The translations under genes were made by a program, and so were the position numbers. From positions 1-37,103 of the forward strand of contig DATDEH010000105.1 of assembly GCA_036523395.1 (NCBI GenBank): a stretch of 37,103 nt of DNA. The letters run 5' to 3'. Shown one piece after another: positions 14,340 through 36,300 of the stretch (position 1 is its first letter; each line of letters begins with the position of its first letter). Below the pieces are notes generated by a model, which was not told the origin of the DNA, did not search any database, and was given only the letters and a program-made list of their open reading frames with translations. This DNA comes from Candidatus Limnocylindria bacterium (GTDB lineage Bacteria; Chloroflexota; Limnocylindria; P2-11E).

Positions 14340-15184
14340 CGGAGGTCCGCCAGGTCGATGCCCAGGAGCACATTGTCGATGAGCCGCGCCTTGCCCACAC
14401 GCGCGGCGAGCGAGATGACCGCGCTGTCCGCCGGCGCGTGGAGCTCCGTGAGCGTGAACGGATCGGCGGCCGAGACGTACTCGAGCGAGATGCCCGGTCC
14501 ATCCGTGTACCGGCGCACCGCATCGGTCAGGCGCTCTGGCTCGCGCACGCCCTTCTCCCACAGCTCGCGGGCCGCGAAGAGACCGCGCGAGAGCGCGACC
14601 GCGTCTCTCCTCTGCTCAGGTGTGAGATACGCGTTGCGTGACGACATCGCGAGGCCGTCCGGCTCGCGCACGGTGGGACAACCGATGATGTCAGCGCCAA
14701 GCCGGAGATCGCGCGCGATGGTCTGCAGCACGCGCAGCTGCTGGAAGTCCTTCTGCCCGAAGAACGCGCTGTCGGGCCGCACGATCGCGAGCAGCTTCGC
14801 GACGACCGTCGCGACGCCGACGAAATGACCGGGGCGCGCCGCGCCCTCGAGCGGGGCGGCGATCGGTCCGGGAGTGATGCGCGTCGCGTCGCCGGGTGGA
14901 TAGATCTCGGCCACGGGCGGGACGAAGGCGGCCGCGCATCCATGGCTCTCGAGCAGTGCGATGTCCTCGGCCTCCTTCCGCGGGTAGGCGGCGAAGTCCT
15001 CAGTCGGACCGAACTGCGTCGGATTCACGAAGATCGATGCGATCGAGGCGTCGTTCTCACGCGCGGCGCGCTCCACGAGCGAGATGTGGCCGGCGTGCAG
15101 CGCGCCCATCGTTGGCACGAAGCCGACACGACCTGCGCCCGCGCGCCATGCGCGCACGTCGGCGACCGAATGAAGGACCTTCAA
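14336..15184 (-). CDS. panC: Pantothenate synthetase (pantoate-beta-alanine ligase)
   Basis: 282 residues from TTG 15184, close to the 283 of E. coli PanC. The start is fixed by the TTGA overlap with the preceding gene and by the family N-terminus. It condenses pantoate and beta-alanine using ATP. Motifs present: FVPTMGALHAGHISLVERA (HIGH-like, H30 and H33), SIFVNPTQFGPTEDFAAYPR, FFGQKDFQQL and MSSRNAYLTPEQR. It follows the GpgS fusion and precedes the MFS gene, so it is translated inside a carbohydrate operon and not next to panB/panE, about 1.6 kb away on the other strand. That placement is unusual. Confidence 0.97.
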   Translation of the reverse strand: MKVLHSVADVRAWRAGAGRVGFVPTMGALHAGHISLVERAARENDASIASIFVNPTQFGPTEDFAAYPRKEAEDIALLESHGCAAAFVPPVAEIYPPGDATRITPGPIAAPLEGAARPGHFVGVATVVAKLLAIVRPDSAFFGQKDFQQLRVLQTIARDLRLGADIIGCPTVREPDGLAMSSRNAYLTPEQRRDAVALSRGLFAARELWEKGVREPERLTDAVRRYTDGPGISLEYVSAADPFTLTELHAPADSAVISLAARVGKARLIDNVLLGIDLADLR

Positions 15185-16974
15185 CGTGCGCGCGAGGAGA
15201 TGTAGGCCGGCACGGTCGCCATGGGTGGACGCTCGGTCGCGATGATGTCGTGCATCTCCAGATGCAGCTTTCCTCCTTCCTCCGGTGTGATGAGCTTGAT
15301 GGACGAGTTCGCCTCGTCCCAGAGCCTCTCTCCGTGCGCCTCGCCGACGCGCCGGAGCGCGACCTGAAGGATCTCGAAGCTCATCTTGGAGAGCGCGAGG
15401 AGCGTCTGGTTGCGGTGGATGCGCTGCTTCATGTCGACCTGCGCGATCGAGCCGAGGCCCGCTCGGTGCAGCGTGTCGATCAGCAGGCCGGTCTCGACGC
15501 CGTAGCCGGTGAAGAAGGGAAGCTGCTCCAGCAGCGCGCGGCGTCCACCTTGTTCGCCGGAAAGCGGCTGCACCATCCCCGAGAGCTCCGGGAAGAAGAG
15601 GTTGAGGATCGGGCGCGCGGTGAGCTCGGTGACGCGCCCACCGCCGGTCGCCTGCAGCTCGCCGCCGACACGCAGTGGCCGCTGGTAGAAGGCCTTCACG
15701 AACTGCAGATCCGGGCGCATGAGCAGTGGACCGACGATGCCGTACACGAACTTCGGGTGCGCGTTCGAGACGTCCGTGTCGATCCACACGATGATGTCGC
15801 CGCGGAGGACGTGGAGGCTCTTCCAGAGCGCCTCGCCCTTGCCGATGTAGCTGCCCGTGCCGGGAAGGACCTGGCTGTGGATGTGGACCGGGACGCCTTC
15901 CTCACGCGCGATCTCGCGCGTGCGGTCGTCGGAATCCGAATCGATGACGACGATCTCGTCGACCAGCGGGAAGCGCTCCATCAAGCGCGTGCGGATCGCG
16001 CGGATGACGCGGCGCACCGTGGCCTCTTCGTTGAGCGTGGGCAGGCCGACCGAAATGGTCAGCCCCTGACGCTCTTTCGCCTCGACCAGACGGCGCAGGT
16101 CCGCGAACTCGGTGGAGCTGAAGGTGTTCTGGACGAACCACTTGTCGACGATCTCGCCGATGACACGGCTGCGGTCGGCCCGGTCCGCGGGCAGCGTCGG
16201 CAGCGGAAGCGTGAGCTCAGGGCTGACCGGCGTCGCCGTGCGCACGACGATGGCAGCACGGGCGTTCGCGACGATGGACTGACCGACCGGACCAAGTGGA
16301 TCCTCCTGATCCGTGCGTCCCGTCGCACCGAATGCGATCGCATCGTGTTCGGCCAGCTCCTCGTTGATCACGTCGGCAGGATCGCCGGTGCGCGTGATCA
16401 GCCGATCGACGCGGTCGTCGAGCGTGCGTTCGCCGAGCAGCTGGTAGAGCGTGGGGGTGCGGCGGCCCGGAGTCCGCACGTGGAGCAGGGTCACACTGCC
16501 GCCGCGCGCGCGGGCCCAGCCGATCGCGACCTTCGCTGCGAGGTCCGCGTAGCGGCCGCCGCGCACCGGGACGAGCATGCGCCGCGCGCGCGACAGCGGA
16601 CCCTTCACCACGGCGATGTCGCACGGCGGATTGCGGAGGACGTCCTCGATCGTCGTCCCGAGGAGATCCCAGCCGGGACGCCGCCACGACAGCAGAAGCA
16701 GGTCGGGGCGTTCGTTCGCAACGGTCTCCTGTATCGCCTGCCATCCCAGTCGCGCGACGGTCACCAGTGTTCGTGCTCGTGCGTTCGCCGGCACGAGCTG
16801 GTCCAGCGTGCGCCGCAGCCGGCGCGCTTCGGGCTGGACCGAGGCGAGCGCGTCGCCCTCGGGCACCTCGATCGCCGACACGAGGACGAGCTCGTCTCCG
16901 GCGGCGAGGGCGACGGCCAGATCGACGACGGCGCGGTCGCGCTCCGGGTCGACGATCGCGACGAGACACTTCAT
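15181..16974 (-). CDS. Fusion of two universal-stress-protein domains with a GpgS-type glucosyl-3-phosphoglycerate synthase
   Basis: 597 residues from ATG 16974, overlapping the GT4 stop in ATGA. Residues 1-125 (MKCLVAIVDPERDRAVVDLA to PPCDIAVVKGP) and about 130-246 (RRMLVPVRGGRYADLAAKVA to AIVVRTATP) are tandem Usp-like alpha/beta domains. From about 270 on is a GT-A glycosyltransferase: ISVGLPTLNEEATVRRVI, VVIDSDSDDRT, GSYIGKGEALWKSL, WIDTDVSN (D399, D401), MVQPLSGEQGGRR and GYGVETGLLIDTL. These are hallmarks of GT81 GpgS enzymes, which glucosylate 3-phosphoglycerate to start glucosylglycerate synthesis. Stand-alone GpgS is about 320 residues, so the Usp half is an addition, possibly a nucleotide-sensing regulator. 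No dedicated GpgP phosphatase is visible. Confidence 0.88.
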   Translation of the reverse strand: MKCLVAIVDPERDRAVVDLAVALAAGDELVLVSAIEVPEGDALASVQPEARRLRRTLDQLVPANARARTLVTVARLGWQAIQETVANERPDLLLLSWRRPGWDLLGTTIEDVLRNPPCDIAVVKGPLSRARRMLVPVRGGRYADLAAKVAIGWARARGGSVTLLHVRTPGRRTPTLYQLLGERTLDDRVDRLITRTGDPADVINEELAEHDAIAFGATGRTDQEDPLGPVGQSIVANARAAIVVRTATPVSPELTLPLPTLPADRADRSRVIGEIVDKWFVQNTFSSTEFADLRRLVEAKERQGLTISVGLPTLNEEATVRRVIRAIRTRLMERFPLVDEIVVIDSDSDDRTREIAREEGVPVHIHSQVLPGTGSYIGKGEALWKSLHVLRGDIIVWIDTDVSNAHPKFVYGIVGPLLMRPDLQFVKAFYQRPLRVGGELQATGGGRVTELTARPILNLFFPELSGMVQPLSGEQGGRRALLEQLPFFTGYGVETGLLIDTLHRAGLGSIAQVDMKQRIHRNQTLLALSKMSFEILQVALRRVGEAHGERLWDEANSSIKLITPEEGGKLHLEMHDIIATERPPMATVPAYISSRAR

Positions 16975-18191
16975 ACGGCGCCCCCGAGGATGACGGGTAG
17001 CACGCGCTCGCGCAGAACGCGCGGCCAGGCGTGCTCGCGCGCGCGGACGCGCATCCGCATCACCGGCGTGTCGAGCGCGCGCTCGATCGCGTCCGCGATG
17101 ACCTCGCCGCTCGCGTCCGGCGGGACGTAGATCGGGTCGTCGCCGCCCGTTTCCCGCAGGGCGGGGATGTCGCTGCACACGATCGGCATGCGGTGCAAGC
17201 CGGCCTCCAGCATCGGGATCCCGAAGCCTTCGCTCTCGCTCGGGAAGACGAGCACGTCAGCGAGCGCGAAGAGGTCCACGACCGTGCCGTATTTGACGCG
17301 CAGGCCGAGCGCGGCGAGGAGGTGAACACCCTCCACCTTCTTCGCGCGCGCCGACAGCTCGGCGAGGTACGCCTTGTTCGTGGCGTCGTGCGGCCCAACG
17401 GTCCCGGTCACGACGAGCACCGCGTTACGACCGCGACGGCGAAGGACCGCGGTGGCGTCGATCGCCGCCTCGATGCGCTTGCGCCGCGTGAGCCGGACCG
17501 GGAGGAGGAGCAGCGGGTCCGCGTCGAAGAGCCCAAGGCGCTGCGCGAGATGCAGCCCCGTCGGCGCGAGACCGAGCACTTCGCCGACGTCGACGCCGTT
17601 GGTCACGACCTCGATCTCGTCGCGCGAAAGCCGGGTGAGCTGCGACAGCTGCTGCGCCCTTTCCCGCGACACCGTGACGTAGCGAACGCCCGGCACCGCG
17701 CGAGTCACGATGTCCCACGGCGGGCCGTCGCGTCGCAGGGCGGCGTAGCGCTGATCGTAGTACGAGATGTCGTGCGTCCAGGCGATGAAACGGCCGGGAT
17801 GCTCTTGCGCGAGTGTTGCAAGGACCTCCGTGAGCGCGAGGTTGAGCGGCATCGTCATGATGTTGTGCACGACGACGCGGTCCGCACGCTCCACGTGTGG
17901 ACGGATCTTGGCCTCCAGGCGCGCGACGAGCTTTTCATGATCCCTCGTGACGACGCCTTTCGAAAGCGCCGCGAGGTCGCGCTCGACCGCCGGATGTCGC
18001 GAGTCGGCCTCCGCGACGCGGACCACGCGCACGCCGGGCGGCTTCGCTCCGCCACGGCCGGCCAGGACCGCCACCTCTTTACCCGCTGCGAGGAGCGCGG
18101 CGATGTGCGCGCCCATGACCTGCTCGACGCCGCCGAGGATCTGTGGCGTCGTGTAGTGGACGAACAGGATGCGGCGCACGCCGCGGGTCAC
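16971..18191 (-). CDS. GT4-family glycosyltransferase
   Basis: 406 residues from GTG 18191, which overlaps the previous stop in GTGA. GT-B fold: the N-terminal loop ILGGVEQV (19-26) binds the acceptor side, RLTRRKRI (233-240) gives the sugar-nucleotide phosphate contacts, and the EX7E motif is in SESEGFGIPMLEAG (E321, E329). There is no signal peptide or membrane helix. It lies directly upstream of the GpgS fusion with coupled translation. A mannosyl or glucosyl transfer onto the GpgS product would parallel mannosylglucosylglycerate synthesis known from Petrotoga, but this is inference; GT4 enzymes are too diverse to assign donor and acceptor from motifs. Confidence 0.9.
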   Translation of the reverse strand: MTRGVRRILFVHYTTPQILGGVEQVMGAHIAALLAAGKEVAVLAGRGGAKPPGVRVVRVAEADSRHPAVERDLAALSKGVVTRDHEKLVARLEAKIRPHVERADRVVVHNIMTMPLNLALTEVLATLAQEHPGRFIAWTHDISYYDQRYAALRRDGPPWDIVTRAVPGVRYVTVSRERAQQLSQLTRLSRDEIEVVTNGVDVGEVLGLAPTGLHLAQRLGLFDADPLLLLPVRLTRRKRIEAAIDATAVLRRRGRNAVLVVTGTVGPHDATNKAYLAELSARAKKVEGVHLLAALGLRVKYGTVVDLFALADVLVFPSESEGFGIPMLEAGLHRMPIVCSDIPALRETGGDDPIYVPPDASGEVIADAIERALDTPVMRMRVRAREHAWPRVLRERVLPVILGGAV

Positions 18192-20311
18192 GCGGGAGCG
18201 GCCATCCTCGTCTGCGAGAGGCGGCCCTGGCCGCCGGCGACGTGGTCGCCCTTCGCGCCGCGACGTACGCGGAACGTCACGCGCTCGCCGAAGATCTGCA
18301 TGTCGCGGACGTCGATGAGCTCCAACCACGGCGGCAGCGCCGGATCGATGAGCAGCTGCTGCGTCGCTAGGTCAGGCGTCAGCCCGAGGAGGGTGCGCAT
18401 GCAGAGGAAGACCATGCCTGCCGACCACGCCTGCGGGATGCACGAGACGAGGTAGTCCGCCGGGCGCGACGCGAAGCGGAGGTCGCGCTGGAAGCCACAG
18501 AAGAGCTCGGGCAACCGCGCATCCGGGAAGCGTCGACCGGCCTCGATGAGCGCGCTCGTGATCTCCGCCGCTTCCTCGCGGAAGCCGTACCGCGCGAAGC
18601 CCTGCGCGATGAGCGAGTTGTCGTGCGGCCAGACGGAGCCGTTGTGATAGCTCATCGGGTTGTACGTCGGATACGTGCTCGCGAGCGTGCGGATGCCCCA
18701 GCCGGTGTACATGTCCGGCGTCATGAGCCGGCGCACGACCGCCGCAGCGTGATCCGGACTCGCGATGCCGCCCCACAGCGCGTGTCCCGCGTTGCTCGTC
18801 ACGGCGCGCACCTGCTCCTTGTCGCCGTCGAGCGCCTGCGCGTAGCACCCCTGGTCCGGCATCCAGAAGTCGCGTTCGAAGCGCTCGCGCAGCTCGCGCG
18901 CCTCGCCGCGGAGTCGGTCCGCGCGCGCCGCGTCGCCGTCGAGCGCGTAAAGGTCGGCGAGCCCCATCTTCGCGGCGTACAGATACGCCTGGACCTCGAC
19001 GAGCGCGGCGGGGAGCTTCGACCACGTCCCGTCGGGTTCGGAGAGGGACTGGGGCGAATCCTTCCAGCCCTGACTGTGCAGTCGATCCGCGTTGCGGCGC
19101 TCCGCGCGCGACCCGTATTCGACGTACCCATCGCGATCGGCATCGCCGTACGTGTCGCACCACGTGAGCGCGCGCTCCGCCGCGGGCAGCAGCTCGCGCC
19201 AGAGCTCGCGGTCCGCCGTCCACTTCACGGTCTCGGCGACGAGGAGCGCGAAGAGCGGCGTCGCGTCGACGGATCCGTAGTACGGACGATGTGGGATCTC
19301 TCCGAGTCGCGCGAGCTCGCCGCGGCGCAGCTCGTGGAAGATCTTTCCCGGCTCTTCCTCCGAGAAGTCGTCGACCTTCTGGCCCTGGTACTTCGCGAGG
19401 AGCCGGAGCGTGCCGCGCGCGACGTCGGGATTCCAGCCGAGCGTCTGGTACGCGCAGATGAGTCCGTCGCGCCCGAACGGTACCGCGTACCAGGGGATGC
19501 CCGCGGTCGGGTACGGGCCGCTGTCGTGGAACTCCATGAGCGCGCGCAGATCGAGAGCGCTGCGCGTGATGAGGCCCTCGTCGAGCGTCTCGGAGCTCGT
19601 CGTGTAGCGAGCACAGCCGCGAAGGAAGCGGCGATAACGGGCGTTGAGCGCGTCGATGGCGTCGTCGAAGCGATCCGGCGAGGGCGCGGCGCCCGCGCCG
19701 TCCTCGCGCGGGATCACGATGAGCTCGATCGTGAGCACGCCCTGTGGCGGCAGATCGCGCTCGATGTGGAAGACGTTGCCCTCGATGCGATCGGGCGCCG
19801 GGCGCATCGTGATGTCCGTCGTGCGTCGCACCGCGTCGCGGCCGACGCGCTCGAAGACGATGCCGCCCTCGCGGGTGCCCCGCTTGATCTCGTGCGGTGT
19901 CGCGGCGACCTCGCGGTACCCACGCACTGCGAACATGTCGCGGAACGATGCCTCGAACTCGAGCTCGAGCGCGACGTGCACCGGTTGGGGGTTCGCGTTG
20001 AGCACCCCGATGCGCTCGCGCATGCCGTCCGCGAGGAAACGCGTTCGCCGGATGGAGAGCGCTCCAGCCGTGTGGCGCGCGGTGCCGATCGTCGCTCCCT
20101 CCGCGCGCATGAGCTGGAACGTCGCGACGTAGTTCTGCTCCGTGTTCGCCGAGAGCAGGATCGGCGGTGACCCGTTCACGCGCAGCGCGTATCCCGAGAG
20201 GAACTGGGTGTCGTGGTAGTAGAGCCCGAACGGACTCGCGCTCCCGAGCGTCAGCGAGCCATCGTTCTCCGTGATGAGGACGAGGGCGTCCTCTTTGAGC
20301 GAAACGCTCAC
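18188..20311 (-). CDS. Glycogen-debranching-type glycoside hydrolase (amylo-alpha-1,6-glucosidase-like)
   Basis: 707 residues from GTG 20311 (GTGA overlap with the preceding stop). The N-terminal beta domain (about 1-225: LITENDGSLTLGSASPFGLYY, YHDTQFLSGY) matches the GDE_N_bis type. The (alpha/alpha)6 barrel that follows has PWYAVPFGRDGL (D282), SQGWKDSPQSL, TSNAGHALWGGI and SYHNGSVWPHDNSLIA (555-569). Relatives are annotated as amylo-alpha-1,6-glucosidases, and related clan members hydrolyse glucosyl- or mannosylglycerate. Between two glycosyltransferases, a role in trimming or degrading the operon's glycoside is as likely as glycogen debranching. There is no signal peptide. Confidence 0.88.
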   Translation of the reverse strand: MSVSLKEDALVLITENDGSLTLGSASPFGLYYHDTQFLSGYALRVNGSPPILLSANTEQNYVATFQLMRAEGATIGTARHTAGALSIRRTRFLADGMRERIGVLNANPQPVHVALELEFEASFRDMFAVRGYREVAATPHEIKRGTREGGIVFERVGRDAVRRTTDITMRPAPDRIEGNVFHIERDLPPQGVLTIELIVIPREDGAGAAPSPDRFDDAIDALNARYRRFLRGCARYTTSSETLDEGLITRSALDLRALMEFHDSGPYPTAGIPWYAVPFGRDGLICAYQTLGWNPDVARGTLRLLAKYQGQKVDDFSEEEPGKIFHELRRGELARLGEIPHRPYYGSVDATPLFALLVAETVKWTADRELWRELLPAAERALTWCDTYGDADRDGYVEYGSRAERRNADRLHSQGWKDSPQSLSEPDGTWSKLPAALVEVQAYLYAAKMGLADLYALDGDAARADRLRGEARELRERFERDFWMPDQGCYAQALDGDKEQVRAVTSNAGHALWGGIASPDHAAAVVRRLMTPDMYTGWGIRTLASTYPTYNPMSYHNGSVWPHDNSLIAQGFARYGFREEAAEITSALIEAGRRFPDARLPELFCGFQRDLRFASRPADYLVSCIPQAWSAGMVFLCMRTLLGLTPDLATQQLLIDPALPPWLELIDVRDMQIFGERVTFRVRRGAKGDHVAGGQGRLSQTRMAAPA

Positions 20312-21528
20312 GCGGTGGACGTGCTCCTGGCTTTCGCCTGGCTGCGTCTCTCCATGAATCGGAGCTTCTCCTCCTCCATCGAGCGCGCCCCGTCTTCGAT
20401 GACGGCCTCGGATTGCGCCGTGGTCATATCGGCCACGTCCTCGATGAATGTTGCTGTGCGCAGCTGATAAAGAGGCAGCAACGCTTTCGCGAGGCGCTCG
20501 CTGTCTTGCGGACGCACCAGCGCGGCGTCAAGAAAGCGGAACACGACGCCGGCCCACGTTTCTACATCGAGCCGTTGATGCGGAAGGTTGTCGCCGAGGA
20601 TCTCGCGCCAGACGGCCATCTGCTCCTTCGCTCCGGCCTCGTACTTCTCGCGTAGACGAGCGGCGACCGCCGGCACCGCCTCGGGTTCGACCGGGATCAC
20701 CTCGCCGATGAGCGGAACGTCCTTCGAGCCCTGCACCTTTGACCACATCGCTTCGTTCTCGGCGGCCATGCGGAAGAGCGTCCCGACGACCTGCGTGAAC
20801 ATCGGGCCGAGGTCGGCCGCCGGGTCCTTCGGGTCGTGCACCTTCGCGCCGAGGAACGCCTGTGCGACGCGCGCGCCGCGCGCGATCGCGGTCGTGGTCA
20901 TGAAGATGTCGATCCCAAAACGCGCAACGTCCGTGTCCCATACGGGCCGGTCCAGATACGCGCGCGCGAGGTCGGCGCGGAACCCGAACTCGCCGCCGAT
21001 CGGCTGGCGCACGCGGAGTCCGTACAGCGCGCGAGTGAGTGGATAGGCGACCGAGTTCGTGATCGTTCCGTCGTGCTTGTGCCGTGCGTAGAGCGGAGTC
21101 ATGTAGTCGGCGTCGCCGCTCGTGATGGGGGTCAGGAGCCGCCCGATCCACTCGGGAGTGATGCTGCGCAGGTCGCTGTCGACGACAGCGCACGCCCGTG
21201 CGCCGAGCATGCCGACCGCGGTGAAGATCGCGCGGAACGCGGAGCCCTTGCCCGGCGGTCCGATGTAACTGCCCACCGCCACGGGCACGCCGGCCGCCCC
21301 GTCCACGACGCGATCGGGCGTGCCGTCCTGCGAGCCGCCGTCCGCGTTCACGATCGCGACGCGCGCGCCGCGGAAATGCTCGCGCAGTCCCTTCGCCGCG
21401 GTCGACGCGACGAATCCGATCGTCGCCGCATTGCGGAAGCTCGGGATCCCCACGACGACATCGGCCGAGCCGATCTTCGTGATCCCGCCCTTGAGCTGTT
21501 CGTCGAGTGTCAGCTGATCGTCAGGCAT
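20308..21528 (-). CDS. GpgS/mannosylglycerate-synthase-like glycosyltransferase (GT-A)
   Basis: 406 residues. I prefer ATG 21528 over ATG 21540 because GGAGGG (21538-21533) lies 4 nt before it. GT-A motifs: VVVGIPSFRNAATIGFV, VNADGGSQDGTPD, GSYIGPPGKGSAFRAIF, VVDSDLRSITPEWI (D117, D119), RQPIGGEFGFRADLARAYL and TDVARFGIDIFMTT. The GSYIG-GKG block and DSD/DTD metal site parallel the GpgS fusion encoded three genes downstream, so the two are probably related enzymes acting on glycerate-type acceptors. The overall pattern also recalls mannosylglycerate synthases (GT78). The C-terminus is a charged helix (MEEEKLRFMERRSQAKAR). It is the first gene of the six-gene chain, with its own promoter. Confidence 0.82.
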   Translation of the reverse strand: MPDDQLTLDEQLKGGITKIGSADVVVGIPSFRNAATIGFVASTAAKGLREHFRGARVAIVNADGGSQDGTPDRVVDGAAGVPVAVGSYIGPPGKGSAFRAIFTAVGMLGARACAVVDSDLRSITPEWIGRLLTPITSGDADYMTPLYARHKHDGTITNSVAYPLTRALYGLRVRQPIGGEFGFRADLARAYLDRPVWDTDVARFGIDIFMTTTAIARGARVAQAFLGAKVHDPKDPAADLGPMFTQVVGTLFRMAAENEAMWSKVQGSKDVPLIGEVIPVEPEAVPAVAARLREKYEAGAKEQMAVWREILGDNLPHQRLDVETWAGVVFRFLDAALVRPQDSERLAKALLPLYQLRTATFIEDVADMTTAQSEAVIEDGARSMEEEKLRFMERRSQAKARSTSTA

Positions 21529-21571
21529 GCGTCCCTCCATGTGAGTTCACGCACCCTTCCTGTCCTCGGGC

Positions 21572-21583: not shown

Positions 21584-22216
21584 GTGCTCGAAGCGCTCGA
21601 CGCGATCGTTCTGCCCTTTCTCGAATCGCTCTACGAGCGGTTCGGCTACGTCGGTGTCGTCATCGCGATGACCATCGAGAGCTGTGCGATCCCCGTGCCA
21701 TCTGAGCTGATCCTTCCGTTCGCCGGTTGGAGCGTGTCGCGCGGACTCGTCGAGCCACTCACGTCGTCGCCGTGGAGCTACTGGGGCGCCGTGCTCGCTG
21801 GGGTGCTTGGCAATACGCTCGGGTCGCTCGCCAGCTACGCGATCGGAGCATATGGTGGCCGCCCCCTGGTCGAGAGATACGGCAGATACGTGCTCATCAG
21901 CGCTCACGATCTCGAGCTCGCGGAGCGCTGGTTCGCGCGCTTCGGCGAGGCGACGGTGTTCTTCTCGCGCATGCTGCCGATCGTGCGCACCTTCATCTCG
22001 GTGCCCGCGGGTATCGCGCGCATGCCGCTGTGGCGCTTCACGTTGTTCTCGATCCTCGGCGCCATCCCCTGGGTGATGCTGCTGGTCTGGGGCGGGATGC
22101 AGCTCGGTGATCACTGGCTCGAGCTGAAGCAGTCGCTCAAAGGACTGGACTATCTCGTCGCTGCCCTCATCGCCCTGGGCGTTGGCTTCTTCGTGTGGCG
22201 GCACGTGCGCCGCTGA
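21584..22216 (+). CDS. DedA family membrane protein
   Basis: 210 residues from GTG. The product is an integral membrane protein with the DedA/SNARE-associated pattern: amphipathic N-terminus, IESCAIPVPSELILPFAG (re-entrant loop with an acidic residue), GNTLGSLASYAIGAYGG, and RMLPIVRTFISVPAGIARMP with the conserved arginines. Members such as UptA transport undecaprenyl phosphate across the membrane; others move phospholipids. The next gene begins with a PAP2 phosphatase domain, and DedA plus PAP2 is a sensible polyprenyl-phosphate recycling pair. The stop overlaps the next ATG (TGATG), so the two are coupled. The start is supported by a leaderless-type promoter. Confidence 0.93.
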   Translation: MLEALDAIVLPFLESLYERFGYVGVVIAMTIESCAIPVPSELILPFAGWSVSRGLVEPLTSSPWSYWGAVLAGVLGNTLGSLASYAIGAYGGRPLVERYGRYVLISAHDLELAERWFARFGEATVFFSRMLPIVRTFISVPAGIARMPLWRFTLFSILGAIPWVMLLVWGGMQLGDHWLELKQSLKGLDYLVAALIALGVGFFVWRHVRR

Positions 22217-25191
22217 TGGAAGGGGTCTTCGCGTTCGACCGCCAGCTCTACGGCGCGATCGTCACCGCCGTCTCCAACAACCTGCTGCTCGCCTTTCTCG
22301 CGATCATCGTCGCCTACCTCAACTGGAACGGACTGGTGTGGTGGATCGCCGGGCTCTTCGTCGCTCGCTCGCGAGACTGGGGGCGTCGCGGGCTGTGGGG
22401 AATGCTCACGGTCTATCTCGGACTCTGCGATGGCTGGCTCACGGCCGAGCTGCTGAAGCTCGTCTTCCAGCGCCCGCGTCCGTTCACGGTGGTCCTGGAT
22501 CTTCCGCGCCCGCTGATCGACGAACCGACGAGCTTCTCGTTCCCCTCGGGCGACGCGACATTCGCGTTCGGCGCAGCGGTGGCGCTCGGTCAGGTCGCTC
22601 CCGCGTGGCGACTTCCGGCGCTCTTGTTCGCGTTCGCCGTTGCCTTCGAGCGCGTTGCGGTCGGCGTGCACTACCCCATCGACGTCACCGCCGGTGCGAT
22701 CCTTGGCACGGTCTCCGGTCTCACCGCGCCGCTCGTGGTCGGTCTCTTGCGGAGACGCGTGCGCTGGCGTGCCTTCGTCGTTCCGCACACGCACTGGGAT
22801 CGCGAGTGGTACGAGCGCTTCGAGGGCTATCGCGCGCGGCTCGTGCCGATGGTGTCGAAGCTCCTCGATCTCCTCGAGCGCGACGATGCGTTCCGTTCGT
22901 TCACGTTCGACGGGCACACCATCTGGGCCGAGGACTACCTCGAGAAGCGACCGGCCGATCGCTCGCGCATCGAGGCGCTGGTGCGCTCGGACCGTCTCCT
23001 CATCGGACCGTGGTACGTGCTCGCCGACAACCTGCTCGTCTCGGGCGAGTCGCTGCTCCGCAACTTCCAGGAAGGACTGCGGGTCTCTGGTTCGTTCGGT
23101 CGCGCGATGCGCGTCGGCTACGTCGCGGATCCCTTCGGCCATCCCGCGCAGACGCCGCAGATCCTTCGCGGCTTCGGATACAGCTCGTACGTCTTCTCGC
23201 GTGGCGTCGGCGACGAGGGCGAACGGGTCGGCGCGGAGTTCCGCTGGCAGGCGCCGTCGGGAGACCGCGTTCTCGCGACGCACCTCGTCGACCACTACTC
23301 AGGCGGGCTACAGCTGGTGGGGGAGCTCAGCGAGACGCCGGAGCAGCTTCGCGCGAGGATCCGCCGCCGGTTGGGCCGGATGCTCGACGTCACGACGGCG
23401 TACGCGAACGGCAAGACGCTGCTGTTCATGGTCGGCGACGATCACGTCGACGCGTACCCGCGCCTGCCCGAAGCGGTCGCCGCGCTTCACGAGGCCGCGA
23501 GGAACATCGATGCGCGCATCGGGAACCTCGAGGAGTACGAGGCCGAGATGGCCGAGCCGCGCGGCGAGGTCGTCGGCGAGATGGTGCGCGGCAAGTACCG
23601 CCCGATCCTCCGCGGCGTGAATTCCGCGCGTGTCTGGATCAAGCAGGAGAACGCCCGGTGCGAGCGGCTGCTCCTGGAGCGCTGCGAGCCGCTCGACGCG
23701 CTCGCGGGCGGGATCGCGCGCGACGAGGTGCGCTCGCTGTGGCGCACGCTCCTCCAGAACCACCCGCACGACTCCATCTGCGGCTGTTCGATCGACGCCG
23801 TGCACGACGTCGACATGGCGCCGCGTTTCGCGCGCGTCCGGACGGAGGGCGAGGCGCTCGCGGCCCGACTCGAGCGGCGGCTTGCCGGGCGCGGGAACGT
23901 GCCGGTCGTGTGGAGCGCGGTGCCCTGGGAGCGCGCCGCTGTCGTCACGCTCGACGGACGACCCACGCGCGTGCACTGCGCCGCGCTCGGTACGGCGCCG
24001 GCGCAGCGCGCGGAAGGCCCAGGGGTTGCGTCCTCGGACAAGGGAGTCATCGAGAACGAGGCCCTGCGCGTCGAGGTCGCGCTCGACGGCTCGTTCGTGG
24101 TGACCGACCGCGCGAGCGGCGAGCGTTCCGGCCCGCACGGCGCGCTGCTCGACGAGGGCGACCGTGGCGACGAATACACCTATTCGTATGCGGGCCCGAC
24201 GCTCGGGTCGCGCGATCTCGCTGGGACGCGGCGCGCTTCGGTCGCCGGCGATCGCGCCACCGTGACGGTCGAGTTCGAGCTGCGGCTTCCCGCAGGTCTA
24301 CGGGAAGACCGCCTGGCTCGCACGCCGGAGCTTGTACCGTGCCCGGTCCGCAGCGAGATATCGCTCGACGCCGGTGCGCGACGCGTGGATGTGCGCATCG
24401 TGGTCGATAACCAGGCACGCGATCACCGGCTGCGCGTGCTGTGTGAGACCGGCACGCGGTCGCTGACGCACGTCGCGGGCGCGGCCTTCGCCTGGCTGGA
24501 GCGCGAGACGCGCGTTGCCCCGCGCCCGGGCTGGATCGAGCAGCCGACCGCTGAGCGCGCACTCCACGACCTCGTGGCAGTCCAGGGAGCGACGCGCGGT
24601 GTCGCCATCGGCGTCGACGGCCTTCGCGAGTACGCCGTTCTTCACGACGGGCGGACGATCGCGATCACGCTCCTCAGGGCGGTGGGGTTCCTGTCGCGCG
24701 GCGATCTCCCCGAACGCAAGGGACACGCCGGACCCGCGCTGGTGACACCGAGCGCGCAGTGCATCGGCGAGCGTGCGTACCGCTACTGCGTCGTGCCGCT
24801 CGGAGGCGACATGACGCTGCCGCGCGCCGCGCGAGAGATCCGCGAGTGGCTCTCACCCCCGTGGAGCGGCCAGGGCGACGCGGCATGGCGCTCCTTCTAT
24901 TCGGTCGAGGGCGATCCGGCGGTCCAGCCGTCCGCGCTGCGCGCGGGCCCGGACGGCGCGATCGTTGCGCGTGTCTTCAATCCGTCGCGCGACCCGTCGT
25001 CCGTGACGCTCCGCTTCGCGCGGCCTGCGCTGGATGCCCGTGCCGTCGATCTGCGCGAAGGCGATCTCGCCCTGGGCAACACGGGACTCGACATCGTCCG
25101 CACCGCGGCACCGCCGGATGTCGCCGACGGCACGGTCGCCGTCAGGCTCGCGCCGTACGAGATCGGTACGTACCTCGTCCGCCTCGCCTGA
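22216..25191 (+). CDS. Fusion of a PAP2 membrane phosphatase with a GH38 alpha-mannosidase
   Basis: 991 residues in one uninterrupted frame from ATG 22216. Residues 1-178 form a multi-helix PAP2 domain: KLVFQRPRPF (K81), FPSGDATF (110-116) and ERVAVGVHYPID (H152, D156). The usual PSGH histidine reads D113 and the usual SR reads ER. After RRRVRWR the GH38 domain starts at VVPHTHWDREWY (H191, H193, D195). It continues with YVADPFGHPAQTPQIL (nucleophile D305), FMVGDDH, QENARCERLLLERCEPL and LQNHPHDSICGCSIDAVHD (H516, D519), then beta domains to the end. The GH38 part is closest in pattern to MngB-type enzymes acting on mannosylglycerate derivatives. Positive charges after the last helix suggest the mannosidase faces the cytoplasm. 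I know of no described protein with this architecture. Confidence 0.9.
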   Translation: MEGVFAFDRQLYGAIVTAVSNNLLLAFLAIIVAYLNWNGLVWWIAGLFVARSRDWGRRGLWGMLTVYLGLCDGWLTAELLKLVFQRPRPFTVVLDLPRPLIDEPTSFSFPSGDATFAFGAAVALGQVAPAWRLPALLFAFAVAFERVAVGVHYPIDVTAGAILGTVSGLTAPLVVGLLRRRVRWRAFVVPHTHWDREWYERFEGYRARLVPMVSKLLDLLERDDAFRSFTFDGHTIWAEDYLEKRPADRSRIEALVRSDRLLIGPWYVLADNLLVSGESLLRNFQEGLRVSGSFGRAMRVGYVADPFGHPAQTPQILRGFGYSSYVFSRGVGDEGERVGAEFRWQAPSGDRVLATHLVDHYSGGLQLVGELSETPEQLRARIRRRLGRMLDVTTAYANGKTLLFMVGDDHVDAYPRLPEAVAALHEAARNIDARIGNLEEYEAEMAEPRGEVVGEMVRGKYRPILRGVNSARVWIKQENARCERLLLERCEPLDALAGGIARDEVRSLWRTLLQNHPHDSICGCSIDAVHDVDMAPRFARVRTEGEALAARLERRLAGRGNVPVVWSAVPWERAAVVTLDGRPTRVHCAALGTAPAQRAEGPGVASSDKGVIENEALRVEVALDGSFVVTDRASGERSGPHGALLDEGDRGDEYTYSYAGPTLGSRDLAGTRRASVAGDRATVTVEFELRLPAGLREDRLARTPELVPCPVRSEISLDAGARRVDVRIVVDNQARDHRLRVLCETGTRSLTHVAGAAFAWLERETRVAPRPGWIEQPTAERALHDLVAVQGATRGVAIGVDGLREYAVLHDGRTIAITLLRAVGFLSRGDLPERKGHAGPALVTPSAQCIGERAYRYCVVPLGGDMTLPRAAREIREWLSPPWSGQGDAAWRSFYSVEGDPAVQPSALRAGPDGAIVARVFNPSRDPSSVTLRFARPALDARAVDLREGDLALGNTGLDIVRTAAPPDVADGTVAVRLAPYEIGTYLVRLA

Positions 25192-25282: not shown

Positions 25283-25810
25283 ATGCGCCGGACCCTCTTG
25301 CTCGCACTCGTACTGCTCGCCATCGTCGTTGCGCCCGCAGCCGCCGATGATGACCGCACGCATTTCCGTCGGACGACGCCGCGCGCGACGCTCGAAGAGC
25401 AAGCTGGCATCTTCGCGCTCGGCGTTCCGAGTGGACGCGCCTGGGGCATCGAGAGCGAGCTCCGTCCGTTGCCGCCTGAGGGTGCCCTCGCTGTGCGCCT
25501 GGCCGTCTCGGATAGCGAGGTGCGTGAGGCCTTCGTCCGCATCGCTTACTACGCGAGCGCGACGGGGCGTCCCCGGCAGATCGCCATAGCCGACAGCGAG
25601 GCCGTAGCGGCCGGCGAGGGACGCGTCCTGTTCGTGCGGCTGGATCCGCCGCCCGGCGCGGTGGCCTACCGGATCCGCGTCCTGGCGCGCGTCCGGCCGG
25701 ACGCCGACCGCTCGCGCGACGACGCCGTCCAGGCGCGTGTGACGCTCATCGACCGGGCGGCAACGCGGTTCGGCTCGTTGTTCTCGCGCCTGCTGCCCGA
25801 CGCGCCTTGA
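25283..25810 (+). CDS. Secreted hypothetical protein
   Basis: 175 residues. A classical signal peptide (MRRTLLLALVLLAIVVAPAA, cleavage probably after AAA near residue 21) is followed by an Asp/Arg-rich start and a mostly beta-rich body (GIESELRPLPPEGALAVRLA, VREAFVRIAYYAS, YRIRVLARVRP). I do not recognise a family; a small beta-sandwich in the cell envelope is plausible. There is no lipobox and no cell-wall anchor. It has its own leaderless promoter behind an inverted repeat. The next gene starts 18 nt downstream with its own -10 box overlapping the gap, so co-transcription is not required. Confidence 0.75.
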   Translation: MRRTLLLALVLLAIVVAPAAADDDRTHFRRTTPRATLEEQAGIFALGVPSGRAWGIESELRPLPPEGALAVRLAVSDSEVREAFVRIAYYASATGRPRQIAIADSEAVAAGEGRVLFVRLDPPPGAVAYRIRVLARVRPDADRSRDDAVQARVTLIDRAATRFGSLFSRLLPDAP

Positions 25811-25828: not shown

Positions 25829-26914
25829 ATGGCGACGGTCACCTACGACCACGTGACGAAGAGCTTCGGTGACTTCACCGCGGTCAAGGATCTGAATCTG
25901 CAGGTCCGGGACGAGGAGTTCCTCGTTCTCGTGGGCCCGTCGGGCTGCGGCAAGACGACCGCGCTCCGGATGCTCGCCGGGTTGGAAGAGCAGAGCACCG
26001 GGGATATCTTCATCGGCGAGCGCCGCGTGAACGATGTCGCCCCGAAGGACCGCGACATCGCCATGGTCTTCCAGAACTACGCGCTCTATCCGCACATGAG
26101 CGTGTACGACAACATCGCGTTCGGCCTCAAGCTCCGGAACGTCGCGCGCCCCGAGATCGAGCGGCGTGTGAACGAGGTCGCGGAGATGCTCTCGATCGGT
26201 CAACTGCTGAAGCGCAAGCCGAAGGAGCTCTCCGGCGGTCAGCGACAACGGGTCGCTGTTGGTCGCGCGATCGCACGCGAGCCCGCGGTCTTCCTGATGG
26301 ACGAGCCGCTTTCGAACCTCGATGCGAAGCTGCGTATCCAGACACGCGCGATGTTGCAGAAGCTCCATCAGCGTTTGCTGCGCACGACGATCTACGTCAC
26401 GCACGATCAGGTCGAGGCGATGACGATGGGCGACCGCATCGCGGTGATGAACGCGGGAGTTCTCCAGCAGCTCGATACACCCGAGAACCTGCACGAGCGT
26501 CCGACGAATCTGTTCGTGGCGGGCTTCATCGGATCCCCGTCGATGAACTTCTTCCCAGCGAAGATCGTTGGATCCGGAGGCGGCGCGGTGGCGGACGCGG
26601 GGTTCTTCCGCGCGCCGGTGAAGGGTCAGGCCGCCGAGGCGACCGGACGCGACGTGATCCTGGGTATCCGGCCCGAGGACATCGACGATCTGGCGAGCGC
26701 GCAGCAGAACGGCCACCTGCCCGTTGAGACAAAGGTGGAAGTCGTTGAGTTCCTTGGCAACGAGCTGCAGCTTCAGCTCTCGGCGGATGGCCAGACGTTC
26801 GTCGCGCGCGTCTCGACCAATACGCAGACCCGCCCGGGCTCGACGCTGCGCGTGGGCTTCAATCTCAAGAAGCTTCACGTCTTCGATAAGGCGACGGAGG
26901 CCGCTCTGCGGTGA
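25829..26914 (+). CDS. Sugar-type ABC transporter ATP-binding protein (MalK/UgpC/MsmK-like)
   Basis: 361 residues. Walker A GPSGCGKTT (36-44), Q-loop FQNYALYPHMSV (Q82), signature LSGGQRQR (134-141), Walker B VFLMDEPLSNLD (D158, E159) and switch histidine H192 in YVTHDQ. The C-terminal OB-type regulatory domain includes GIRPEDI and VVEFLGNELQLQL. This is the carbohydrate-uptake ABC subfamily (CUT1), where one ATPase can serve several permeases. No permease or binding protein is adjacent, so it is probably a shared, orphan subunit. The next gene starts within its stop codon (GTGA at 26911-26914). Confidence 0.95.
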   Translation: MATVTYDHVTKSFGDFTAVKDLNLQVRDEEFLVLVGPSGCGKTTALRMLAGLEEQSTGDIFIGERRVNDVAPKDRDIAMVFQNYALYPHMSVYDNIAFGLKLRNVARPEIERRVNEVAEMLSIGQLLKRKPKELSGGQRQRVAVGRAIAREPAVFLMDEPLSNLDAKLRIQTRAMLQKLHQRLLRTTIYVTHDQVEAMTMGDRIAVMNAGVLQQLDTPENLHERPTNLFVAGFIGSPSMNFFPAKIVGSGGGAVADAGFFRAPVKGQAAEATGRDVILGIRPEDIDDLASAQQNGHLPVETKVEVVEFLGNELQLQLSADGQTFVARVSTNTQTRPGSTLRVGFNLKKLHVFDKATEAALR

Positions 26915-28908: not shown

Positions 28909-29876
28909 GCGACAACCACTTCCTCGGCGTCGACCTCGGCGGTACGCAGATCCGCTCGGTCATCGCGACGCTTGACGGCGACCGCCACGAGATCGTCGCG
29001 CGTGATGAGCGTCGCACGCCACGAGACGGCGCCGAGTCGATCGTTCGCGCGATCGCGGACTCCGCTCGCGCGAGCGCCCGCGAGGCCGGCTTACCGCTCC
29101 ACGAGCTCGTCGCTGTCGGTTGCGCCGCGCCGGGTCCCCTCGACCACCGCACCGGTCTGGTGCATCAGGCGCCGAACCTGGTCGGATTCATCGAGTTCCC
29201 GCTCGCCGCCCGTCTGTCCGATGCGCTCGATGGGCTCACCGTCTTCGTCGACCGCGACACCGCGATGGCCGCGATCGCCGAGGGTCGGGTCGGCGCCGCG
29301 CGCGGCGCGCGCGACTTCATCTACGTGACCGTGTCCACCGGGCTCGGCGGAACGATCGTGAGCGGCGGTCGCATGCTGCGTGGCGCGACGAACACCGCCG
29401 GTGAGATCGGGCATTGGCCGGTCGCGTTCCAGCTCGATCCATCGCGTGACGCGGCCGCGGATCTGCCGCGCTGTGGCTGCGGCTCGTTCGGCTGCGCCGA
29501 GTCGTTCGCGGCGGGCCGCAACATCGCCGATGCCTACGGGGTCACAGACGCGGCCGAGGTCTTCGCCGCCGCCGCACGTGGCGAGCCCCGCGCGACCACG
29601 ATCGTCGTGCGAGCGGAACGTGCGCTCGCGAACCTCGCGGTCGGCCTGGTGAACGTGCTGAATCCCGCTCTCATCGTCGTCGGCGGATCCATCGCGGACA
29701 AACAACCAGCTCATGTGCTGGAGCCGATGCGTCGCGCGATCGCGGAGCGCGCGTTCCGCGCGCCGGCCGGCGCGGTGCGGGTGGTGCCGGCGGAGCTCGG
29801 CGCCGATGTCGGCATGCTGGGTGCGGTCTTCGCTGCCAGACAGCGTCTGTCGGGGCAGGGGGAGTGGTTCCTTTAG
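28905..29876 (+). CDS. ROK family sugar kinase (glucokinase-like), CTG start
   Basis: 323 residues if read from CTG 28905, which overlaps the previous stop as CTGA. The frame is correct and carries the ATP motif [13 protein letters not shown] at 8-20, which every later ATG or GTG would delete (the first is GTG 29160). The catalytic aspartate is D118 in [13 protein letters not shown]; the usual asparagine before it reads Arg. The ROK zinc motif is complete: H170 in AGEIGHWPV and [11 protein letters not shown] (C190, C192, C197). [13 protein letters not shown] matches the second phosphate loop. A hexokinase-type role on glucose or another sugar is likely, feeding the glycolytic genes that follow. 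Confidence 0.9.
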
Positions 29877-29879
29877 TCT
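29874..29879 (+). promoter_or_regulatory. -10 box for gap operon
   Basis: TAGTCT overlaps the TAG stop of the ROK gene. Transcription from about 29886 gives a short leader of about 16 nt with AAGGGGG at 29889-29895, 6 nt before the gap ATG. This is one of the few clear Shine-Dalgarno sites in the window, as expected for a highly expressed gene. Confidence 0.5.
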
Positions 29880-29901
29880 CACCATCACAAGGGGGTCAGC
29901 C

Positions 29902-30924
29902 ATGGGTGTGCGCATCGGCATCAACGGTTTCGGACGCATCGGCCGGCAGTTCCTCAAGGCGGTCCTGGAGCGGCACCCTGAGCTCGAGGTCGTCGCCGTG
30001 AACGATCTCACGGACCCGCAGATGAACGCCTACCTGTTCAAGCACGACACCAACTACGGCGACTTCAAGGGCGAGGTCTCCGCCAGCGCGGACTCGCTCG
30101 TGATCGATGGCCACAGCATCAAGGTGCTGCAGGAGAAGGATCCCGCCAAGCTCCCCTGGAAGGCGCTCGACGTGGACATCGTCATCGAATCGACCGGCTT
30201 CTTCACCGATGGGACGAAGGCGAAAGCCCACCTGGACGCCGGTGCGAAGAAGGTCATCATCTCCGCGCCCGCGAAGAACGAGGACGTCACCGTGGTCCTC
30301 GGCGTGAACGAGGAGCGCTACGACCCAGCCAAGCACAACATCATCAGCAACGCGTCGTGCACCACGAACGGCCTCGCGCCGGTCGCGAAAGTGCTCAACG
30401 ACGAGTTCGGCATCAAGAAGGGCTTCCTCACGACGGTCCATTCGTACACGAACTCGCAGCGCACGCTCGACACCGCCGCGAAAGAGCCGCGCGACGCGCG
30501 CGCGGCCGCGGAGAACATCGTCCCGTCGGAGACCGGCGCCGCGAAAGCGGTGGCGCTCGTGATCCCGGAGCTGAAAGGGAAATTCGTCGGTATGGCGTTC
30601 CGCGTGCCGACGTCGACCGTGTCCGTCGTCGACTTCGTCGCGACGCTCGGGCGGGAGGTCACGAAGGACGAGGTGAACGCGGCCTTCAAGCGCGCAAGCG
30701 AAGGCGACCTCAAGGGGATCATGGGTTACACGGAGGAGCCGCTCGTCTCGAGCGACCTGAAGGGCGATGACCGTTCCACGATCGTCAGCGCGATCGACAC
30801 GATCGTCCTCGGCGATACCGTGAAGGTCATCTCCTGGTACGACAACGAATGGGGTTACGCCTGTCGGCTCGCTGACATCGCCGCGTTCGTCGCGTCGAAG
30901 CTCCGCGTTCCCGCCGCGGCGTAG
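29902..30924 (+). CDS. gap: Glyceraldehyde-3-phosphate dehydrogenase, type I
   Basis: 340 residues from ATG with a strong ribosome site. The NAD-binding N-terminus is [17 protein letters not shown], with D35 in VAVNDLTDP favouring NAD+. The catalytic cysteine is C153 in [13 protein letters not shown], paired with H180 in [19 protein letters not shown] closes the protein as usual. The phosphate-binding stretch reads [12 protein letters not shown], where most enzymes have STGAAKAV after a threonine; the change is conservative. First gene of gap-pgk-eno, producing 1,3-bisphosphoglycerate, whose downstream product 3-phosphoglycerate is also the GpgS acceptor. Confidence 0.97.
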
Positions 30925-30930
30925 CTTCGC

Positions 30931-33434
<2,504 letters not shown>

Positions 33435-33437
33435 CCC

Positions 33438-35963
33438 GTGAATCAGCGTCTCGTCGTTCCGCTCTCTGCGCTCGGCGCGCACGATCTCCCGATCGCGGGC
33501 GGTAAGGGCGCGAACCTCGGCGAGCTCATCCTCGCGGGCTTCCCAGTTCCCGACGGCTTCGTGATCACCACCGACGCATACGTCGCGGCCGCGAGCGCGG
33601 CCGCGGTCGACCCGAAGGACCCAAAGGCGGCGCGCGCCAAGTTGATCGAGACAGCGATGCCGGCGGAGATCGCGAACTCGGTGCGCGATGCGTACCGCGC
33701 GCTCGGCGGCCGAGTCGCGGTGCGCTCGTCGGCGACCGCGGAGGACCTGCCCGAGGCGAGCTTCGCGGGACAGCAGGACACCATCCTCGACGTGGTGGGC
33801 GATGATGCGCTCCTCGACGCGGTCCGCCGCTGCTGGGCGTCGCTGTGGAACGAGCGCGCCGTCTCCTATCGGGCAACGAACGCGGTCGACGAGCGTGCCC
33901 TGCGACTGGCGGTCGTCGTGCAGCGGATGGTGCCCGCGACGATCGCGGGCGTCCTCTTCACCGCCGACCCCATCACCGGCCGCCGCCGGCGCGCCGCGAT
34001 CGATGCGGTGCGCGGGCTCGGCGAGCAGCTCGTATCCGGGGCGGTGAATCCGGATCACTACCTCGTCGACACGACGACCGGCGCGGTCCTCGAGCGCCGC
34101 GGCGACATTCTCGACGATGCTGGCCTACGCGAGATCGCGGCGATGGGCGCCCGCATCGAAGCGCACTATGGAAAACCGCAGGACATCGAGTGGGCGATCG
34201 ACGAACAGAAGCTGTGGATCGTGCAGTCGCGCGACATCACGACGCTGTATCCGATCCCCGCGAGCGCTCCCGATCCGGAGCGCGACCTGCGCGTGTACTT
34301 CTCGGCCAGTGTCGCGCAGGGCGTTCTTCAGCCCTTCACGCCGATGGGTATCGAGACCTTCCGGTTGCTCAGCGCGGCGTTCGCCTCCGCGGTTGGTAGG
34401 CCTCTCGCGGATCCGGCCGCAGGTGCGTCCGTCATCGCGGATGCGGGCCTGCGCCTCTGGGTCGATCTCGCCGCGGTCCTTCGGAACTCGGCCGCGCGGC
34501 AGATACCGGTCCGGGTGTTTTCCATCATGGAAGCGCGCAGTTCGGTGATCTACACGCGGCTGCTGGACGACCCGCGCCTCGCCCCGCGCGGTGGCTCGCG
34601 CATCCGCGCGATCGTTTCGATCCTTCGCGCGGTCGAGCACGCCGGAGTGCCGCCGTGGGTGATCCGCGCCTTCCTCCGTCCCGAGGCGACGCGCGACCGG
34701 GTCCTGCGCGACATGGAGTCGCTCGTCACGAGCGACGTGGGACCGCTCACGACACCGGGCGAGCGGCTCGACGCGTTCGAGCGTCTGCTCGTCACGATAC
34801 CGCCGCGCATGTTCCCGAGGCTTGTCGGGGTAGCCGCCGCCGGTCTTGTCTCGTACAACCGCGTCGCAAGACTGCTCCGCGGTGTCGCCAGCGATGACGA
34901 AATGCGGACGGTGCTCCGCGGCCTGCCCTTCAACCCGACGACCGAGATGGACCTGGACCTGTGGGCTATCGCGCGCCGCGCTCGCGACGATCCGTCGTCG
35001 CGCACAGCCCTGGCGGACCGGGCGCCAGTGGAGCTGAGCGCGGACTACCGACGCGGTGCACTACCGCCAGTGCTCCAGCAGGAGCTCGAGACGTTCCTGG
35101 TGCGGTACGGGCACCGTGCGATCGCCGAGATCGATCTCGGCCTGCCGCGCTGGTCGGAGGATCCGTCACATCTCCTTGGCGCGATCGCGAACTACCAGCG
35201 CCTCGACACGGCGGCTCTGGCCCCCGACGCGCAGTTCGCGCGCGGCGCGCGCGAGGCGGATGCGACGATCGCAACGCTACTGTCGCGGGTCCACGGTCCG
35301 CGTCGATTCGTCGCGCGAAAGCTCCTCCGACGGGTTCGCGCCCTCGCCGGCGTGCGCGAGGCGCCGAAGTTCCAGGTGGTCCGCGTCTTCGCCCGCGGCC
35401 GAGCGATCCTCGCGCCCGTGGGAGTGGCGCTCGCCGCCGACGGGCGCGTCGCCGCGGCGGACGACATCTGGTTCCTCACGCTTCACGACGCGCGTCGCGC
35501 GGTCGCCGGCGAGGACATGCACGCCCGCGTCGCAGAGCGTCGCGCGGAGTACCGCCGCGAGGAGCGGCGGCGTCACATCCCGCGTGTGCTCCTGTCGGAT
35601 GGGACCGACGCCGAGGCCGCGTTCGCCTCACCCGCGACTGACGGTGCGATCCGCGGCACGCCGGCATCACCGGGCACCGCGCGCGGCGTCGCGCACGTGA
35701 TGCTTTCGCCCGCAGGCGCACGGCTCGAGCCCGGCGAGGTCCTCGTCGCTCCGGCCACCGATCCGGGTTGGACGCCGCTCTTCCTCACGGCGAGCGCGCT
35801 GGTGATGGAGATGGGCGGGATGATGTCCCACGGCGCGGTCGTCGCGCGTGAATACGGGATACCCGCGGTCGTCGGCGTTCCGGAAGCGACAACGCGGATC
35901 GCGACGGGCGAGCACGTCGTCGTCGACGGCTCTGCTGGGACGGTCGCGCTCGAGGGGCCCTAG
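33438..35963 (+). CDS. Rifampin-phosphotransferase-like / PEP-synthase-like dikinase without the PEP-binding barrel
   Basis: 841 residues from GTG. The N-terminal ATP-grasp of the pyruvate phosphate dikinase family (GGKGANLGELILAGFPVPDG, VAVRSSATAEDLPEASFAGQQ, VLFTADPITGRR, DIEWAIDEQKLWIVQSRDI) is followed by a long helical middle domain (about 290-690). The swivelling phosphohistidine domain is at the C-terminus (GTPASPGTARGVAHV, MEMGGMMSHGAVVAREYG, with H798). The order ATP-grasp, middle, His domain and the length match rifampin phosphotransferases. The TIM barrel that binds PEP/pyruvate in PEP synthase is missing. The position after gap-pgk-eno suggests a metabolic role, the architecture suggests phosphorylation of another acceptor; I cannot decide. 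It ends with a 4-nt overlap (CTAG) with rpsT. Confidence 0.85.
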   Translation: MNQRLVVPLSALGAHDLPIAGGKGANLGELILAGFPVPDGFVITTDAYVAAASAAAVDPKDPKAARAKLIETAMPAEIANSVRDAYRALGGRVAVRSSATAEDLPEASFAGQQDTILDVVGDDALLDAVRRCWASLWNERAVSYRATNAVDERALRLAVVVQRMVPATIAGVLFTADPITGRRRRAAIDAVRGLGEQLVSGAVNPDHYLVDTTTGAVLERRGDILDDAGLREIAAMGARIEAHYGKPQDIEWAIDEQKLWIVQSRDITTLYPIPASAPDPERDLRVYFSASVAQGVLQPFTPMGIETFRLLSAAFASAVGRPLADPAAGASVIADAGLRLWVDLAAVLRNSAARQIPVRVFSIMEARSSVIYTRLLDDPRLAPRGGSRIRAIVSILRAVEHAGVPPWVIRAFLRPEATRDRVLRDMESLVTSDVGPLTTPGERLDAFERLLVTIPPRMFPRLVGVAAAGLVSYNRVARLLRGVASDDEMRTVLRGLPFNPTTEMDLDLWAIARRARDDPSSRTALADRAPVELSADYRRGALPPVLQQELETFLVRYGHRAIAEIDLGLPRWSEDPSHLLGAIANYQRLDTAALAPDAQFARGAREADATIATLLSRVHGPRRFVARKLLRRVRALAGVREAPKFQVVRVFARGRAILAPVGVALAADGRVAAADDIWFLTLHDARRAVAGEDMHARVAERRAEYRREERRRHIPRVLLSDGTDAEAAFASPATDGAIRGTPASPGTARGVAHVMLSPAGARLEPGEVLVAPATDPGWTPLFLTASALVMEMGGMMSHGAVVAREYGIPAVVGVPEATTRIATGEHVVVDGSAGTVALEGP

Positions 35964-36232: not shown

Positions 36233-36241
36233 AGGGCCGGA

Positions 36242-36247
36242 ACGATA
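36242..36247 (-). promoter_or_regulatory. -10 box of rpsT, nearly leaderless
   Basis: TATCGT on the minus strand, then 9 nt, then ATG 36232, giving a leader of about 3 nt. The geometry matches the ABC ATPase promoter at 25814. Confidence 0.5.
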
Positions 36248-36288
36248 CACGACATCCGTCGCAGGACCGTATGGCCGCCCGGCTCGCT

Positions 36289-36294
36289 CATACT
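36289..36294 (+). promoter_or_regulatory. -10 box for leaderless murJ transcript
   Basis: CATACT, then CACGCG (6 nt), then GTG 36301. The 68-nt gap holds both this and the divergent rpsT promoter. No ribosome site precedes the GTG. Confidence 0.55.
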
Positions 36295-36300
36295 CACGCG

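Follow-up and report, generated by a model that had tools for sequence, protein, structure and literature searches.

A PAP2 membrane domain and a GH38 mannosidase domain joined in one conserved protein of uncultured Chloroflexota

A single protein of Candidatus Limnocylindria joins a PAP2 membrane phosphatase domain to a complete GH38 alpha-mannosidase domain. Both domains are well known; what is new is their combination, which is real, old and conserved, and runs through an entire order of uncultured soil Chloroflexota. A literature search found no published description of a PAP2-GH38 architecture, in agreement with a preliminary description of this DNA, which knew of no characterised enzyme with the pairing. 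If both halves are active, a single protein would place one hydrolase on each side of the membrane and would physically tie the recycling of a lipid carrier to mannoside metabolism. The gene lies in a stretch of 37,103 nucleotides (contig DATDEH010000105.1, positions 1 to 37,103), here called the window, and its parts are as follows.

22216-25191, plus strand: PAP2-GH38 fusion gene, 991 amino acids
22216-22764, plus strand: membrane PAP2 part, residues 1-183 (Pfam, motif invariance, model helices)
22738-22770, plus strand: basic junction, approximately LLRRRVRWRA (residues 175-185), leading from the last PAP2 helix to the first GH38 strand
22768-25188, plus strand: putative GH38 alpha-mannosidase part, residues 185-991 (domains and conserved residues)

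The fusion gene and its distribution

The reading of the window gives one open frame of 991 codons at 22216-25191 on the plus strand. Because long frames come cheaply in this GC-rich window, where long antisense frames are frequent, length alone is no evidence, and we used homology instead. Pfam places a PAP2 domain at residues 74-174 (PF01569; E 1.3e-17, 64.2 bits against a cut-off of 27.2), followed by Glyco_hydro_38N at residues 186-447 (PF01074; E 6.5e-35), Alpha-mann_mid at 466-552 (PF09261; E 6.1e-10) and Glyco_hydro_38C at 612-823 (PF07748; E 1.9e-6), all above their cut-offs; PF17677 scores slightly below its own. The GH38 region is complete, occupies residues 186-990 and begins straight after the PAP2 domain, the hinge between the halves being LLRRRVRWRAFVVPHTHWDREWY. 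The single 991-codon frame with a basic hinge, as originally read from the letters, is thus borne out by the Pfam domains and by the recurrence of the fusion in the window's family (f1; 24 genomes) and in a sister family (f2).

Homologues were sought in 101 relatives and then class-wide in 177 genomes. In the 24 f1 genomes, PAP2 and GH38 share a single frame with no internal stops, and the fusion is also present in the one f2 genome searched, which encodes a second, stand-alone GH38 as well (G028; L170:3702-6365). The f1 members without the fusion are incomplete genomes, and within the order the two domains are joined wherever the pair can be read; the possibility that homologues are always two separate genes, raised in the preliminary description, is therefore contradicted. 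The class-wide search of 177 genomes found no fusion in families f3, f4 and f5 of the same class. When a 400-genome sample of the phylum was queried with the PAP2 part, strong matches in frames longer than 1000 codons came only from the fusions of f1 and f2, and the nearest other PAP2 domains were stand-alone or joined to kinase-like domains. For other phyla, the exclusion of fusions comes solely from a scan of the GH38 collection. Named matches to the fusion are Chloroflexota metagenome-assembled genomes from soil and other environments. GH38 proteins outside the order begin at the GH38 opening motif, and the sequence around 60 loci, many of them short or incomplete, held no PAP2 or DedA frame beside a stand-alone GH38. 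In the tree, all fused GH38s group in a single, fully supported clade on a long branch; the fusion therefore has one origin, no later than the f1/f2 ancestor.

Could the fusion be an artefact of assembly or reading, or two proteins made by way of an internal start? We regard this as largely refuted and scarcely credible. An in-frame GTG does occur at 22759, but the residue encoded there varies among the fusions. The frame is stop-free in at least 25 separately assembled genomes, which rules out an assembly error or hidden frameshift, including the stop or frameshift at 22750-22790 that had been named as a weak point. The AlphaFold model of the whole protein is, moreover, a confident single chain (pLDDT 95.8, pTM 0.92).

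The two halves and the membrane

The PAP2 half carries the C1 (K81-x6-RP) and C3 (R146-x5-H152-x3-D156) motifs of its family; its C2 reads PSGD at residues 110-113. An alignment of 18 fusions shows no variation at K81, R88-P89, P110-S111-G112-D113, R146, H152 or D156. In every fusion, position 113 of C2 is Asp and not His (PSGD instead of PSGH), a feature that the preliminary description had not recorded. The closest solved PAP2 protein, both in sequence (6ebu, profile 7.6e-22) and in structural comparison (2.2 A, TM 0.82 over the target), is LpxE of Aquifex, which shares the Asp in C2 and the same helix plan, and is an active phosphatase that works best on C55-PP and also on PGP and lipid A 1-phosphate; it replaces the C55-PP phosphatases of Escherichia coli in a strain that lacks them (PMC6581854). 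Aquifex aeolicus LpxE differs in having no GH38 part and is about 28% identical in the structural alignment. We do not accept, given an active enzyme with the same Asp, that the fused PAP2 is dead for want of the C2 histidine; by analogy, it looks like an active lipid pyrophosphatase rather than a relic. Between the window's fusion and its closest partner (L031), dN/dS is 0.21 for PAP2 and 0.11 for the catalytic part of GH38, and both halves are under purifying selection. One fusion (L042:7983-10961) no longer has the lysine of C1 or the glycine of C2 (PSSD), so that phosphatase activity is not expected to be universal among the fusions. In that protein the PAP2 half may be decaying, and the GH38 half is intact.

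The role of the C2 histidine is itself disputed. In PgpB, the H163A mutant kept 27% of its activity on C55-PP and 0.09% on PGP in one study, and a second study disagrees about the role of this histidine on PGP (PMC7413402). The fusions offer a natural PSGD lineage of PAP2 in which to test that role, which the first of these studies found for PGP and not for C55-PP.

In the GH38 half, the zinc ligands are H193, D195, D305 and H518, the nucleophile is D305 and the acid/base is D409; these roles are ones we take from alignment to Drosophila Golgi mannosidase II numbering. H193, D195, D305 and D409 are invariant in the 24 fusions and H518 is nearly so, and the metal and nucleophile residues are intact, as first described. 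The fold matches, over its full length, the GH38 alpha-mannosidases of Enterococcus faecalis (5kbp, 3lvt) and Streptococcus pyogenes (2wyh) (E 2.9e-64 and 3.5e-62), with which the fused half also shares its catalytic residues. Those enzymes, in contrast, are soluble and without a membrane domain, are 24-26% identical to the fusion and lie apart from the long branch that the fused clade occupies in the tree. Judged by its residues and domains, the GH38 half very probably works as an alpha-mannosidase.

Its substrate is a separate matter. The best NCBIfam model for the GH38 part is MngB (PRK09819), at 394.5 bits against a cut-off of 1138; in the tree, E. coli MngB is distant, on a long branch of its own on the other side of the starred branches, and the fused GH38 lacks the PTS transporter context of that enzyme. 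The score below cut-off and the tree position rule out MngB orthology. The lack of any match to mannosyl-3-phosphoglycerate synthase (MPGS, PF09488) in 30 genomes likewise speaks against a mannosylglycerate pathway through MPGS.

How the halves sit across the membrane can be read with some confidence. In the model, the last PAP2 helix (residues 154-181) runs directly into a strand (184-193), with 2-3 residues between them. This helix begins at the C3 motif and ends on the opposite face of the membrane. In PgpB (PMC7413402) and LpxE (PMC6581854), the PAP2 motifs are at the outer face. The mean net loop charge over 24 fusions is +6.4 on the GH38 face and +0.8 on the motif face, matching the positive-inside rule, and the GH38 domain is therefore expected in the cytosol. 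Together these results argue strongly for a PAP2 active site outside and a GH38 domain inside. The first GH38 strand leads from the membrane to the zinc ligands H193 and D195 in the model, and barrel geometry and strand order lead us to expect a GH38 pocket that faces away from the bilayer.

The DedA partner and the neighbouring sugar genes

The genes around the fusion, in order along the window, are these.

15181-17178, minus strand: glucosyl-3-phosphoglycerate synthase with N-terminal Usp domains (NF010496, 373.6 bits, cut-off 262)
16971-18329, minus strand: GT4 glycosyltransferase, almost confined to fusion-bearing genomes
18188-20311, minus strand: GDE_N_bis / MGH1-like glycoside hydrolase (PF14742 2.8e-43, PF22422 5.4e-23)
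20308-21540, minus strand: divergent GpgS-like glycosyltransferase (NF010496 4.4e-14; PDB GpgS about 1e-6), kept across the class
21584-22216, plus strand: DedA-family protein (VTT domain), UptA-like (PF09335 3.6e-23), directly upstream of the fusion
25283-25810, plus strand: conserved 175-residue protein whose start resembles a signal peptide, immediately after the fusion
25829-26914, plus strand: orphan UgpC-type ABC ATPase, no permease seen adjoining

The start of the fusion lies on the stop of the DedA gene: its ATG overlaps the DedA stop codon in TGATG (22214-22218), an overlap that had also escaped the preliminary description. The DedA protein matches UptA best among NCBIfam models (NF052604; 172.6 bits, 1e-50, below the cut-off of 250) and is, on this evidence, likely an undecaprenyl-phosphate flippase. 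DedA stands directly upstream of the fusion in both f1 and f2 loci; the spacing to genes beyond the pair differs in f2. DedA-PAP2 fusions (COG0586) are known and have been interpreted as dephosphorylation followed by flipping (PMC10127716). The pairing of a PAP2 phosphatase with a DedA flippase is common to both arrangements, but here DedA stops at 22216, so that there are two overlapping genes and not one chain, and PAP2 is joined instead to GH38. The position of the fusion start on the stop of an UptA-like DedA makes recycling of a lipid carrier the most likely role of the PAP2 half. C55-PP may be its substrate, by analogy with LpxE and from the DedA context; the SepP model scores the fusion at 56.4 bits against a cut-off of 250. 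It would not be the sole C55-PP phosphatase, a role ruled out by BacA, which turned up in each of 30 genomes (in fragmentary form in that of the window itself), and the PAP2/DedA system would thus be an additional one.

The minus strand carries a conserved cluster of glucosylglycerate type. The glucosyl-3-phosphoglycerate synthase with N-terminal universal-stress-protein domains is found class-wide, and both GpgS-type genes are linked across the class even where there is no fusion. The GT4 gene, by contrast, is present in 25 of 29 f1/f2 genomes and in 2 of 32 others, the latter at 38-42% identity; more distant relatives of the GDE-like hydrolase are widespread. It follows from these distributions that GT4, GDE and the fusion all joined the locus in one and the same ancestor. 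Without amounting to proof, this single evolutionary event fits a scheme in which GT4 makes a mannosylated product of glucosylglycerate type and GH38 removes the mannose. Our best guess for the GH38 substrate is therefore a cytosolic alpha-mannoside related to this cluster; a literature search for mannosylglucosylglycerate mannosidases found nothing relevant. The plus-strand frames 14896-17130 and 17031-18455 were rejected as genes, since they merely shadow, in antisense, the GpgS and GT4 genes of the minus strand. Further downstream, genes for GAPDH, PGK, enolase, a PPDK-like protein and MurJ stand in a row (29713-37103, plus strand).

A proposed two-sided enzyme and its alternatives

We propose a two-sided enzyme. 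Its N-terminal half would be an LpxE-type PAP2 lipid phosphatase whose active site lies at the outer side of the cytoplasmic membrane. Its most likely substrate is undecaprenyl pyrophosphate, and DedA, to which it is linked in translation, would return the dephosphorylated product to the inner leaflet. The C-terminal half would be an active retaining GH38 on the cytosolic side, anchored through the last PAP2 helix, where it would most likely trim a cytosolic alpha-mannoside, the leading candidate being a mannosyl-glucosylglycerate-like compound made by the adjacent cluster. As a full explanation, we give this about an even chance. We hold the two proposed substrates only loosely, as we do the idea that the halves are linked in function, and the tie to the sugar cluster, which consists of synteny and one shared evolutionary gain, may be coincidence. 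With their sites most likely on opposite sides of the membrane, the halves probably act on different molecules. A bolder version would have lipid-carrier recycling outside, with DedA, linked to alpha-mannoside turnover inside, one molecule controlling both envelope synthesis and the pool of mannosylated solute or glycan; this seems to us unlikely.

The two-sided enzyme has to be set against readings in which one half or the other does something else. PAP2 could be a mere anchor with little or no catalysis left, which would make the protein no more than a cytosolic alpha-mannosidase fixed to the membrane. The C2 histidine is replaced in all fusions, PAP2 evolves faster than the catalytic part of GH38, further motif residues are gone in L042, and BacA is present anyway. 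Against this, the nucleophile H152 together with D156, K81, R88 and R146 is invariant in 18 fusions, Aquifex LpxE is fully active with the same Asp, and the DedA partner suits an active phosphatase; we think a pure anchor a serious but lesser possibility. Another proposal is that GH38 trims alpha-mannose from undecaprenyl-linked glycan intermediates at the inner leaflet, as quality control or recycling coupled across the membrane to dephosphorylation of C55-PP outside. The context of DedA and PAP2 and the direct tether, with almost no linker, are in its favor, but the pocket is expected to face away from the membrane and no gene cluster for a lipid-linked mannan adjoins. GH38 enzymes, moreover, act on alpha-mannosides, whereas polyprenyl-phosphate mannose is generally beta-linked, and we consider this trimming quite improbable.

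The preliminary description had suggested that dephosphorylation and mannose removal might be coupled on one phosphorylated or lipid-linked mannoside, the two sites acting in sequence. The domains do form one covalent chain, and no lineage that has them has separated them. However, the PAP2 sites lie outside and the last helix ends inside, to judge from solved PAP2 proteins (PMC7413402, PMC6581854) and the loop charges, and a GH38 pocket reached through strand 184-193 should, from barrel geometry, face away from the bilayer. This topology argues against one coupled reaction, which we hold to be very unlikely, and for a membrane-tethered cytosolic alpha-mannosidase beside DedA. The other suggestion made at that time, a tethered mannosylglycerate hydrolase next to DedA, therefore comes close to our best reading: its anatomy stands, but its mannosylglycerate identity finds no support in the MngB score, the tree or the search for MPGS in 30 genomes.

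PAP2 serves as the membrane partner of another enzyme domain elsewhere in the phylum too. In other Chloroflexota (L131-L148), it is joined, in both domain orders, to apparent diacylglycerol-kinase-like domains, whose kinase identity was assigned by eye; these proteins differ from the GH38 fusions in having PSGH in C2, another partner and a different lineage.
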